Below, in pieces: positions 59,374 to 62,747 of a DNA stretch of 64,000 nucleotides. Each line of letters starts with the position of its first letter. The first letter of the stretch is position 1. Source of the DNA: Desulfuromusa kysingii (lineage in GTDB: Bacteria > Desulfobacterota > Desulfuromonadia > Desulfuromonadales > Geopsychrobacteraceae); the NCBI RefSeq assembly GCF_900107645.1, contig NZ_FNQN01000002.1, positions 124,001-188,000 of the forward strand, read 5' to 3'. Below the pieces are notes generated by a model. That model did no database searches. It saw only the letters and a list, made by a program, of their open reading frames with translations, and was not told where the DNA came from. A program made the position numbers and the translations under genes.

Positions 59374-60098
59374 TGTTATTATCAGTTGAAAATCTTGAAG
59401 TGAAATATGGCAATATCCAGGCCCTGCATGGCATCAGCTTTCATGTGAATGAAGGTGAAATTGTCACTCTGATCGGGGCTAACGGAGCTGGGAAAACGAC
59501 CTGTATGCATACGATTACCCGCCTGCCGCCTCCTGAAGCGCCAAGGGTTATTGCTGGGGATATCAAATTTAAAGGGGAATCGATCCTCAAGACCCAGCCA
59601 AGTGATGTGGTCAAAAAACTGCACCTCGCCTTGTCTCCGGAAGGTCGGCGAATCTTTGGGAATTTGACAGTTTTAGAAAATTTGAAGCTGGCCACCTACG
59701 CCCGCACCAAGGATGCAGACCTAAACACGGAATACAACTATATCTTTAATCTTTTTCCGCGATTAAAGGAGCGGCGTAACCAACGCAGTGAGTCGTTGAG
59801 TGGTGGTGAGCAGCAGATGCTCGCAGTGGGTCGAGCGCTGATGACGGGCTGTAAAATTCTGCTGCTGGACGAACCCAGCATGGGATTGGCACCAGTACTC
59901 AAATACGAAATGTTCCGCAAGCTGAAACAACTCAATGAAGATGGGATGACCATCCTTCTGGTTGAACAGAACGCCAATCTGGCCCTAAAACTGGCACATC
60001 GTGGCTATGTTATGGATACCGGAAATATTGTGGCCGAAGGGACAGGGGCAGAGCTTCTGGATAATCCGGAAGTCAAGAAAGCCTATCTGGGAGGATAG
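59373..60098 (+). CDS. livF: Branched-chain amino acid ABC transporter ATPase LivF
   Basis: A 241-aa ATPase. Walker A GANGAGKTT, signature LSGGEQQMLAVGRALM and Walker B ILLLDEPSMGLAP are intact, and LVEQNANLALKLAHRGYVM is the family H-loop region. Last gene of the liv operon, followed by a strong terminator. Confidence 0.96.
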   Translation: MLLSVENLEVKYGNIQALHGISFHVNEGEIVTLIGANGAGKTTCMHTITRLPPPEAPRVIAGDIKFKGESILKTQPSDVVKKLHLALSPEGRRIFGNLTVLENLKLATYARTKDADLNTEYNYIFNLFPRLKERRNQRSESLSGGEQQMLAVGRALMTGCKILLLDEPSMGLAPVLKYEMFRKLKQLNEDGMTILLVEQNANLALKLAHRGYVMDTGNIVAEGTGAELLDNPEVKKAYLGG

Positions 60099-60162
60099 GA
60101 GTTCAGGCTGACGCGGAACTCTACTTCTCAACGCGTTCCAATATCACCATAAAATTAATCAG

Positions 60163-60212
60163 GCACAAGCCACCAGTTGCGAATTGATGCAGTGGTGGCT
60201 TGTGCTTTTTTT
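60163..60212 (+). terminator. Terminator of the liv operon
   Basis: A 13-bp perfect stem GCACAAGCCACCA/TGGTGGCTTGTGC with a 17-base loop, followed by seven T. Confidence 0.95.
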
Positions 60213-60368
60213 ATCCAGCAACAGTGAATTAAAAAATCTCACTCGCAAAGATTCTCTCACTTGCGCCAAAGGTAAGATCTTCCTATGATAAGCAATAAAA
60301 TGACATTCGGCAGGCGGCAACAAGTTCTTCATCGATGACATGAGTCAAACAACCTCCAAGGAATGATT

Positions 60369-61487
60369 ATGATAACTTCATTGCGCCACCAGATTTCAGC
60401 CAGAATCTTTCTGCTGTTGCTAGGTATCCTGTTCTCAACCAGTCTCTTTGCTGCCGACACAATCAACTCAGGGGAGATGTTCCCGCAAATTGCACTCCCT
60501 GCCCCCATGGACCAACTCCAGCGTTCTTATCTGGGATTGACTGACGAACAACCCTTTACTCTCAACCAGATTGATGCCCGTGTGGCTTTAGTTGAAATCC
60601 TCAACGTCCATTGTCCCCATTGCATCAAGCAGACTCAACCTTACAATAAACTCTACCGGATGATTGAAGCTGACCCCGAAACCCGAGGTCAGATCAAAAT
60701 GCTCGGGGTCGCAGTCGCCAACGACGATGAAGCCATTGACGACTTTGTGGTTATTTATTCTGTCGCCTTTCCGGTTATCCCCGATCGCAATTTTAAACTG
60801 CACAGTGCCTTACGTGCAGGGCCGACCCCGTTTTCAGTCTACGCAGTACGCAACACCCCCAGGGATCTCTTCGTCGTCACCGATACCCATCTGGGTGGTG
60901 ATGATAAAATCGATGAACTGTTTGATTACCTCAAAGATCTATTGAGTATGGATTCTGCCGAGTTCACCTCGCTGCCGCAAACAGAGAAGGCAGCCGCCAC
61001 CGAATTACTGCCGCCACAATCCGAAGCTGAAATCAACACCATGGTCAAGACCGCTTTCGGCCGACAGGGGCAGAATCTCCATGACTTCCGTAAACTTGAT
61101 CTGCCTAGCGACCGCTGGGTTTACTCCGCCACCCTGGAGCGCAACGGCCAACGTCAACCGATATTTGCCGAAGTGGCAAATCGCTCTGCCATCTGCGATG
61201 TCTGTCACAGTGTCCATTTCTTCTATCTCTTTGATCGCAGCGGACTGATCCTCGATTTTATCCCCTTGCAACTGACAAAGTATGGCAATGTCGAGTGGAA
61301 CAAGGGAGAACTGAACTACTTTAGCCGCCGTGTCATTGGCAAACATCTGGCAGATTCCTGGGCCTTTTCTCCCAAAACCGACGCTGTCACCAGTGCCACG
61401 ATGACATCAGCAATCATCTTTGATGATCTGGGACAAGGGCTTAAACTCCTTGAAGAATTGCAGCAAGAAAAATTGTTAGAACCTTAA
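60369..61487 (+). CDS. Periplasmic thioredoxin-fold protein with CxxCH and FMN-attachment motifs
   Basis: A 372-aa exported protein (signal peptide ending near LFA, about residue 28). The first half is a TlpA/redoxin-like thioredoxin fold with CPHC at Cys82/Cys85 (ILNVHCPHCIKQ) and a cis-proline-type GPTPFSVYAV. The second half has CDVCH (276-280), a possible c-haem site, then FDRSGLILDFIPLQLTKYG and DAVTSATMTS (338-347), which matches the ApbE flavinylation motif of FMN_bind domains with Thr344 as the predicted FMN site. I chose ATG 60369 because AAGGA lies 6 bases before it. It probably moves electrons or redox-controls extracytoplasmic proteins; partners unknown. Confidence 0.88.
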   Translation: MITSLRHQISARIFLLLLGILFSTSLFAADTINSGEMFPQIALPAPMDQLQRSYLGLTDEQPFTLNQIDARVALVEILNVHCPHCIKQTQPYNKLYRMIEADPETRGQIKMLGVAVANDDEAIDDFVVIYSVAFPVIPDRNFKLHSALRAGPTPFSVYAVRNTPRDLFVVTDTHLGGDDKIDELFDYLKDLLSMDSAEFTSLPQTEKAAATELLPPQSEAEINTMVKTAFGRQGQNLHDFRKLDLPSDRWVYSATLERNGQRQPIFAEVANRSAICDVCHSVHFFYLFDRSGLILDFIPLQLTKYGNVEWNKGELNYFSRRVIGKHLADSWAFSPKTDAVTSATMTSAIIFDDLGQGLKLLEELQQEKLLEP

Positions 61488-61537
61488 AACGATTATTTTC
61501 AAGACGCTGTAGCAGTGAATCAGTTCCACCAACAGAG

Positions 61538-62254
61538 ATGGATAACATGACCACAAACCATAAAAACGACACGCAAATTCCTTGGGAACTGATTGATACC
61601 GCCCCCATTCCCGGACAGGGGACAGAGTTACAGCTATTTCAACGAGAAGGCGAATTTTCTATCAGTATCCTCGATGGAGGCGTGTTGATGAGTACCTGGG
61701 CACACCAGTCTGAAGATGCTTTGGCTCAATTACCCTGTGCTAAAATTGTCAACCGCAACCAGCCCCGTGTCCTTATTGGGGGGTTGGGGATGGGCTTCAC
61801 TTTGGCTGCCGCGTTAAAAACCCTTGGTCCTGAGGCCAAAGTTGTGGTCGCAGAATTAGTTCCGGGGCTCATCGAATGGAACCGCGGGACCCTTGGCAAG
61901 TATGCCGGCCATCCGTTGCAGGACCCTCGCACTCAGGTTCGGGTCGGAGATGTCGCTAAAGTGCTACGCGAACAACGCCAAGCCTATGATGCCATTCTTC
62001 TGGATGTCGATAATGGTCCTCATGCCATCACCCGCAAGAAGAATAACTGGCTTTACACTACCGATGGCTTGACAGAAGCCTATCGAGCCCTGCGCCCAGA
62101 AGGAATCCTTGCCATCTGGTCCGCCGGACCGGATCGGGAATTCATGCAGCGACTGCAGAAGATCGGCTTCAAGGTGAAACAGGTTCGAGTTCGAGAGCAT
62201 CAGAACAAAGGGGATCTGCATGCCATCTGGTTTGCTGAACGGGAAGCCTGGTAA
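61538..62254 (+). CDS. Spermidine-synthase-like methyltransferase-fold protein
   Basis: A 238-aa protein with a Rossmann SAM-binding fold: motif I VLIGGLGMGFTLAAALK, acidic loop VVAELVPGLIEWNRG, DAILLDVDNGP, and LRPEGILAIWSAGPDREF. It resembles bacterial spermidine synthase relatives of unknown substrate that lack the N-terminal beta-hairpin domain of true spermidine synthases. Methyl or aminopropyl transfer cannot be decided from sequence. The start could be ATG 61538 or 61547. Confidence 0.85.
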   Translation: MDNMTTNHKNDTQIPWELIDTAPIPGQGTELQLFQREGEFSISILDGGVLMSTWAHQSEDALAQLPCAKIVNRNQPRVLIGGLGMGFTLAAALKTLGPEAKVVVAELVPGLIEWNRGTLGKYAGHPLQDPRTQVRVGDVAKVLREQRQAYDAILLDVDNGPHAITRKKNNWLYTTDGLTEAYRALRPEGILAIWSAGPDREFMQRLQKIGFKVKQVRVREHQNKGDLHAIWFAEREAW

Positions 62255-62297
62255 CCCTGCCAGCAACAGATAGATTCTGCAATTGAAAGGGACATTG

Positions 62298-62747
62298 ATG
62301 AAATCTTTTACCCAGAACATTCAGGTCCGCTGGTCAGACCTTGATCCTAACGGTCATGTGCGTCATTCGGTCTATTTTGATTACGGTGCCCAGGCGCGGA
62401 TTGCTTATTTGCAAAAACAGGGGTTAGGCATTGACTGGATGCACCGCAAAGGGATCGGCCCGGTATTGTTTCGCGAAGAAGCTCAATTTCACCGCGAGCT
62501 CAACGCCGGAGATCAGTTGATCATTGACGTACAACTCTCCGGACTATCCAACGATCATCGCAAGTGGAGCATGCGCCATCGCATCCTGCGGGGTGAAGAG
62601 ATCTGTGCCACGCTCAATCTGGACGGCGCCTGGCTTGACCTGAAAAGCCGGCGTATTGCCCCGCCGCCAAATGAGCTGGTGGAAAGATTTGAAGATCTGC
62701 AGCAGACCGAGGATTTTCAAATCATTGCGGCGCAAAAAAAGACCTGA
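62298..62747 (+). CDS. Acyl-CoA thioesterase (4HBT hotdog family)
   Basis: A 149-aa single hotdog domain. The catalytic-type block VRWSDLDPNGHVRHSVYFDY contains the conserved Asp and the GH-N-like region, followed by the long helix ARIAYLQKQGLG. Such proteins hydrolyse acyl-CoA thioesters in the cytoplasm. AAGGG precedes ATG 62298; a TTG at 62283 would put that ribosome site within the coding region. Likely co-transcribed with its neighbours on both sides. Confidence 0.92.
   Translation: MKSFTQNIQVRWSDLDPNGHVRHSVYFDYGAQARIAYLQKQGLGIDWMHRKGIGPVLFREEAQFHRELNAGDQLIIDVQLSGLSNDHRKWSMRHRILRGEEICATLNLDGAWLDLKSRRIAPPPNELVERFEDLQQTEDFQIIAAQKKT

Follow-up and report, generated by a model that had tools for sequence, protein, structure and literature searches.

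A thioredoxin/FMN_bind fusion protein of Desulfuromusa kysingii and its relatives as a candidate single-chain flavin-dithiol oxidoreductase

Extracytoplasmic thiol-disulfide exchange is generally taken to rely on DsbD/CcdA or on DsbB/VKOR, and flavinylated carriers are known as electron wires. One gene in the window, by which the whole 64,000-nucleotide stretch of Desulfuromusa kysingii DNA is meant, raises the question of whether both kinds of chemistry may be housed in a single protein. Its product carries the motifs CPHC, CDVCH and DAVTSATMTS, in which the first-pass annotation saw a thioredoxin dithiol, a possible c-haem site and an attachment site for FMN, together forming a compact relay. 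The three motifs do stand in one chain, and not by chance, as their Cys, Asp and Thr positions are near-invariant over 125 aligned rows of relatives. It is then to be asked what each half of the protein is, whether a flavin is carried, what the CDVCH stretch does and in which direction electrons would run.

Layout of the gene, its family and the thioredoxin-like half

The gene occupies 60363..61487 on the forward strand, as do all features given below within these limits. The first ATG, at 60363, gives a frame of 374 residues that includes two extra codons, and the ATG at 60369 gives 372 residues. The latter is favoured as the start because the starts of two relatives (L031 and L032) align at residue 3. 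Residue numbers nevertheless follow the 374-residue frame, so that Thr346 here is Thr344 of the earlier numbering. By eye, residues 1-31 (60363..60455) form an N-terminal signal peptide ending in SLFAA, and hydrophobic leaders are also found at the N-termini of relatives. An Rfam scan of positions 59500-62500 returned no match. The product is a secreted thioredoxin-like domain with CPHC, joined to an FMN_bind domain.

The fusion family is widely but patchily spread. Members occur in 35 of the 136 genomes of the window's order, representing 19 of its 53 genera (protein search, E<=1e-10), and in 54 of 395 genomes of a phylum sample (profile of the C-terminal half, E<=1e-3). Two of these 54 carriers are doubtful, G091 with a 31-residue fragment and G213 with locus L199; both were kept as carriers in the ApbE comparison described below. 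The relative in L031, from a Desulfuromusa metagenome-assembled genome, is 69% identical to the window protein, and identity falls to 33% among the 36 full-length rows of alignment A2. Some genomes hold several copies, including tandem triplets in two of them (L124 and L125). Searches of plasmids and of viral contigs found no family relatives. The conservation counts refer to 125 of 130 aligned rows. The five dropped rows were L199 (a weak match without the motifs), L213 (a 75-residue remnant), L140:6980-7519 (a thioredoxin standing alone) and, from L204, two pieces of a copy with a broken frame; the C-terminal one of these carries CDLCH and DAVSTAT. Six later loci, inspected by eye, lie outside the 125: CxxCH is present in L238, L239, L240 and L252, CDVCT stands in L255, and L243 is a C-terminal piece. 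Additionally, the frames of some relatives are longer, at about 460-630 residues; of two such long forms scanned, L194 has two AhpC-TSA stretches and L127 has one. The long forms in L127, L105, L140, L194 and L196 were also seen to end in an extra Cys-rich tail (CPxGG...CSxHG-like).

The N-terminal half had been described earlier as a thioredoxin fold with CPHC, and this description is supported. Its Pfam-matched part covers residues 59-172 (60537..60878) and belongs to the AhpC-TSA/ResA type: the window protein matches PF00578 at E 9.7e-5, with 22.7 bits against a gathering score of 26 and hence below it, and all 36 scanned full-length rows match at E<=0.01. ResA is found by PDB sequence search with this half (E 0.0032). 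The active-site dithiol CPHC (residues 84-87, 60612..60623) is followed by Thr155-Pro156 (60825..60830), where Pro156 is presumably the cis-proline, as judged from the thioredoxin fold. Both marks of a thioredoxin-like protein of the ResA/TlpA/AhpC-TSA kind, CxxC and cis-Pro, are thus present and near-invariant, since no readable row departs from Cys84 (122 of 122) or Pro156 (124 of 124) and a single one lacks Cys87 (121 of 122). By sequence, this half resembles ResA, TlpA and CcmG, proteins that are not known to carry a flavin domain and that rely on CcdA/DsbD.

The C-terminal half and its flavin site

Residues 213-374 (60999..61484) make up the probable FMN_bind domain. Sequence models recover this domain unevenly. 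A Pfam scan of the window protein gave no FMN_bind (PF04205) match; among its relatives, 29 of 37 C-terminal halves match PF04205 at E<=1, the best at 1e-5. At E<=0.01 the model matches 7 of 36 full-length rows, weak matches to NCBIfam RnfG models occur in 1 to 2 of 36 rows, and two family proteins exceed the Pfam gathering cut-off in the ten genomes where the gene adjoins apbE. Comparison by hhalign of the family profile with a canonical FMN_bind profile, built from 30 segments out of 33 FMN_bind loci tried in the window's order and own genome, gave 1.1e-6. As controls, the N-terminal half gave 0.11, ten column shuffles gave values between 0.17 and 0.64, and the reversed profile gave 0.25. 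With the acceptor motif masked the value was 0.097, so the sequence evidence for the fold comes mostly from the motif. A profile search of the PDB returned chance-level rows only: 8p2a, which is an FMN-binding domain, at E 1.5, and at E 3.5 a reaction-centre cytochrome of the multihaem kind.

Independent evidence comes from structure prediction. The full-chain AlphaFold model, made from the window, L031 and L032 sequences only, has a mean pLDDT of 40.1, and the model of residues 213-374 reaches a mean pLDDT of 72.8 and a pTM of 0.72. It consists of strands followed by helices, with Thr346 placed at a helix start. The best two of 50 PDB rows listed by Foldseek are RnfG chains (9eri_G and 7zc6_G), with probabilities of 0.95 and 0.97 and E values of 0.03 and 0.06; none of the 50 reaches 0.001, and the other 48 have probabilities of 0.15 or less. 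When the 50 PDB rows were re-aligned by VIA-align, RnfG and NqrC chains took every one of the best 16 places, with Z from 10.2 down to 7.6, ahead of a next row at 6.0. The E-T-P-x-L-G stretch of the other flavin face is not recognisable in the alignment. Taken together, the PF04205 matches of relatives, hhalign and the three structural methods agree, and the predicted model identifies the C-terminal half as an FMN_bind domain of the RnfG/NqrC fold.

The putative flavin acceptor is DAVTSATMTS (residues 340-349, 61380..61409), with Thr346 (codon 61398-61400) as the predicted FMN site. In the available excerpt of PMC12052999, the ApbE acceptor motif is defined as D-x-x-[S/T]-G-A-[S/T]. The window's DAVTSAT fits D-x-x-[S/T]-x-A-[S/T], the Gly of the motif being replaced by Ser; this Gly is present in 22 of 122 family rows. 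The same excerpt of PMC12052999 reports that flavinylation of fumarate reductase falls to about half when that Gly is changed to Ala. The Ser at this position, together with the missing PF04205 match of the window protein, could be taken to mean that the domain is degenerate, FMN_bind-like in descent and no longer carrying flavin. We give this reading very little credence: among the readable rows Asp340 is invariant (122 of 122), position 345 is always Ala or Gly (122 of 122) and position 346 always Thr or Ser (121 of 121), just as expected of the ApbE-type site first noticed in this chain, and the family gene adjoins apbE in ten genomes where it is the sole FMN_bind gene.

The linkage to apbE deserves closer description. 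Of the 118 family genes that were clustered, from 108 loci, 10 have apbE as the next gene on the same strand; 118 is a lower bound because clustering missed L137, L176 and L184. None of the linked loci lies in the window's order. They fall into two clades with opposite gene order, the family gene preceding apbE in eight loci and following it in two (L107 and L109). At eight of these loci the mechanical reading frames of the two genes share 1 to 8 bases; L115 and L116 instead have gaps of about 400 and 350 bases to apbE. One neighbouring ApbE was scanned and matched at 3.5e-65. In all ten linked genomes the family protein is the sole FMN_bind match at E<=0.1, and six of them (G430, G369, G390, G274, G246 and G218) have a single ApbE match; the protein of G218 shares DAVTSAT with the window protein. 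More broadly, ApbE is found in 79 of 80 carrier genomes examined. In the phylum sample, 52 of the 54 carriers have it, compared with 143 of the 341 genomes that lack the family (Fisher p 1e-15, a value that overstates the case because the genomes are related). The search for apbE in D. kysingii itself, which had been suggested earlier, yielded one ApbE (G000:C20:74495-75346) beside four canonical FMN_bind genes, so that ApbE is available for the window protein. Thus, with the acceptor kept in all readable rows, apbE adjoining and this protein the sole FMN_bind match in ten genomes, covalent FMN on the window protein is likely. The range of likely ApbE substrates would thereby be extended to a family mostly missed by the Pfam model, and the apbE-adjoining genomes in which it is the sole FMN_bind protein offer a clean test bed.

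With RnfG and NqrC (PF04205), the fusion protein shares the fold and the acceptor Thr at the start of the C-terminal helix. It differs from them in having CxxC(H) at the stacking GYxG/GLW loop, a thioredoxin domain in front and Ser for the motif Gly, and its gene lies outside any Rnf/Nqr operon in the window. It is therefore an FMN_bind protein by fold and acceptor site, falling short of the Pfam cut-off and lacking the motif Gly, and is set apart by the CxxC in the flavin loop and by the fused thioredoxin.

The CDVCH loop: dithiol, haem or metal

CDVCH (residues 278-282, 61194..61208) lies in a loop that is predicted to face the flavin. In solved FMN_bind domains the flavin-covering loop precedes the second strand. 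According to the accessible part of PMC10339131, the residue that stacks on the isoalloxazine is Tyr14 in SaFMN3-D2 and Tyr11 in CbFMN4-D1, and in NqrC, as given in a portion of PMC4348036, Leu149 and Trp150 line the flavin pocket. The GYGG stretch that holds Tyr11 of CbFMN4-D1 aligns to GYAG of a PceC-like protein of the own genome (L071). With the wide family profile, Cys281-His282 fall on the AG of this GYAG; other templates shift the gap by a few residues and leave it within the same loop. The CxxC would thus straddle the flavin-stacking position. This placement is based on alignment, as the model has some of its lowest confidence in this loop (pLDDT <50).

The first-pass annotation took CDVCH for a possible c-haem site, and the corresponding arrangement would be a haem-flavin-dithiol relay, in which CDVCH binds c-haem beside covalent FMN and the lineages without the His have lost the haem. 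A c-type haem needs the His of CxxCH, and bacteria of this order are cytochrome-rich, which counts for the haem. The CxxCH pattern itself is present, and intact in 37 of 37 rows of alignment A1. Cytochrome c assembly genes are found in 78 of 80 carrier genomes, which also favours a haem and makes void an argument against it from missing cytochrome c machinery. Moreover, His282 is kept in 114 of 125 rows, one of which (L144:5757-6935) lacks Cys281. In the other 11 rows E, D, T or S takes its place and both Cys are kept. The tree requires two separate changes for the His-less rows, so the cysteines persist without the His in two lineages; it was made by a quick search from the rows with 250 or more filled columns (121 of 125), with the motif columns excluded, and holds 10 of the 11 His-less rows, L198 being left out. 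Over the whole alignment, Cys278 is kept in 125 of 125 rows and Cys281 in 124 of 125. Furthermore, no cytochrome c family matches the window protein (E<=1) or A2 (E<=0.01) or is among the 13 families matched by A1, which include CcmD in one row (0.035) and Globin in one (0.12). No distal ligand is evident either, since the C-terminal half of A1 has no near-invariant His or Met outside CDxCHxxH. With the CxxC aligned to the loop that stacks on the flavin, a haem at this site is unlikely, with some remaining chance in the CxxCH majority of the family, to which the window protein belongs.

A second possibility is that C-x2-C-H-x2-H is a zinc or iron site with no role beyond shaping the loop, the thioredoxin and flavin halves then acting separately. 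His285, three residues past His282 and kept in 100 of 125 rows, counts for this reading. Both His positions vary, as in L200 where both have changed, and the two Cys scarcely do, which makes such a metal site highly improbable. As the cysteines are near-invariant against a His that was lost by two separate changes, the CxxC of CDVCH is best read from the alignment as a putative second redox dithiol in preference to a haem site. The single chain retains its place as a candidate relay, with the order flavin-dithiol-dithiol more likely than the dithiol-haem-flavin order proposed earlier. That earlier proposal had hung on an FMN_bind fold in the C-terminal half and on motif residues that do not vary freely among orthologues; the fold was found and the motif residues are held, except for the His of CDVCH.

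One copy bears on the pairing of the two dithiols. In L144:5757-6935, Cys281 is lost (CDLGH) and Cys87 is lost as well (CLTS), the flavin motif is kept and the tandem partner is intact. The double loss is as a dithiol-dithiol relay predicts, in a single case. A further search, in the order of G416, yielded 22 listed matches from 12 genomes. Every one of these was already among the relatives collected, so no second double Cys loss came to light.

Proposed relay, direction and genomic context

From these features we consider it reasonably probable that the protein is an extracytoplasmic single-chain flavin-dithiol oxidoreductase, in which covalent FMN, CxxC and the thioredoxin CxxC form a relay. 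After export, ApbE would very probably link FMN via its phosphate to Thr346. Cys278-x-x-Cys281, set in the isoalloxazine-stacking loop, would exchange electrons with the FMN, and these electrons would pass between this pair and CPHC in the tethered thioredoxin domain, in one direction or the other. CPHC in turn might act on disulfides, thiols or polysulfides of outside partners. Dithiols take part in two-electron transfer, a point that counts against an FMN-dithiol relay when set beside a one-electron carrier such as NqrC. For NqrC, one-electron transfer is described in the available part of PMC4348036.

As to direction, we lean slightly towards the reductive one, from FMN through CxxC and thioredoxin to the substrate, a preference that comes from the ResA/TlpA character of the thioredoxin half; a disulfide-making protein is nearly as likely. 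Many ResA/TlpA/AhpC-type proteins are reductants, and CPHC is also the active-site motif of the oxidising DsbA. The same anatomy could accordingly serve a QSOX-like thiol oxidase, in which electrons would run from substrate thiols to CPHC, to CxxC, to FMN and on to a quinone, cytochrome or other acceptor. To this oxidase we assign a tentative place, in view of the CPHC motif on the one side and, on the other, a thioredoxin half that matches ResA/TlpA/AhpC-type families and the lack of any acceptor gene generally linked to the family. The neighbour comparison of family genes likewise found no electron donor gene generally linked. One covalent FMN protein has a midpoint of -184 mV in the accessible section of PMC10339131, a value that does not settle the direction.

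The proposed logic has parallels among known systems. QSOX/Erv sulfhydryl oxidases carry a thioredoxin CxxC and a second CxxC beside the flavin in one chain; they use non-covalent FAD, a helical Erv fold and oxygen, and are mostly eukaryotic. Flavoprotein disulfide reductases, thioredoxin reductase among them, hold a Cys pair beside the flavin and pass electrons to thioredoxin; thioredoxin reductase has two Rossmann-type domains, uses NADPH, and is cytoplasmic, with thioredoxin as a separate protein. In both cases the likeness is in logic only, as the flavin domain of the fusion protein has the predicted RnfG/NqrC fold. DsbD flavinylation clusters, with DUF3570, thioredoxin-like and DUF4266 genes, are described in the available text of PMC8238504. 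As far as that text goes, they are alike in combining flavinylation with thioredoxin-type chemistry outside the cytoplasm, and differ in that the flavin carrier (DUF3570, not FMN_bind) and the thioredoxin are separate genes, whereas the fusion protein is one chain. Open-licence PubMed Central searches found no description of a thioredoxin/FMN_bind fusion, and the accessible portions of the flavinylation surveys PMC8238504 and PMC11334425 mention none. We judge it an evenly balanced question whether the family represents widespread, undescribed extracytoplasmic disulfide oxidoreductases, with ApbE-installed FMN, a CxxC in the stacking loop and a tethered thioredoxin, as periplasmic counterparts of thioredoxin reductase or QSOX with independent descent from an RnfG-type carrier. 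If so, covalent FMN and two dithiols would constitute a further route in anaerobes from flavin electron transport to protein thiols or polysulfides.

Gene neighbourhoods were surveyed by a Pfam scan of 97 same-strand neighbours at most 150 bp from family genes, from which the 25 commonest of 87 families were considered. ApbE is the commonest (8), followed by MltA/3D (6), SBP_bac_5, TM2 and AhpC-TSA (5 each), with NrfD at 2; DsbD/CcdA is absent from these 25 families. The window's order offered no useful conserved neighbourhood, the livKHM genes and the thioesterase gene of the window each recurring in three loci, the window counted. Separate thioredoxin-like genes adjoin the long forms in L128 (scanned as AhpC-TSA), L131, L132 and L136, and also L140. 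Their presence fits a thiol pathway, and the AhpC-TSA genes of the neighbour scan likewise count for the relay.

Two near-identical loci of sister genomes (L047:4705-7050 and L048:5989-8334) place the family gene after an NrfD gene. A nitrate-reductase-delta-like gene (chaperone family) was also observed nearby, in an apparent molybdoenzyme-type locus. NrfD is a polysulphide reductase membrane subunit, and the link hints at quinone-linked sulfur chemistry in this one lineage. In Pelobacter carbinolicus, the periplasmic thioredoxins Pcar_0426 and Pcar_0427 were proposed for S0 reduction, according to the available excerpt of PMC3543383. A role of the fusion protein in sulfur respiration stays a guess, with the family so patchily spread over the order and the phylum sample.

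Several further observations were made in passing. The triplets in L124:2662-6397 and L125:6298-10067, from two related genomes, consist of three tandem copies that differ in their CxxC dipeptides and adjoin an FdhE-like gene, identified by scanning in L124 and by membership of the same cluster in L125. The remnant in L213 (G091:C2) and the frame-broken copy in L204 (G425:C150) point to possible gene loss in some lineages. In the genome of D. kysingii, two Nqr-like operons were recognised by eye, L072 (G000:C10) and L073 (G000:C20), the single ApbE lying about 3 kb from the second. Additionally, this genome encodes two PceC-like FMN_bind membrane proteins, L071 (G000:C9) and L074 (G000:C8), each downstream of an ORF that by eye resembles the C-terminal half of a reductive dehalogenase, which suggests organohalide respiration in this organism.
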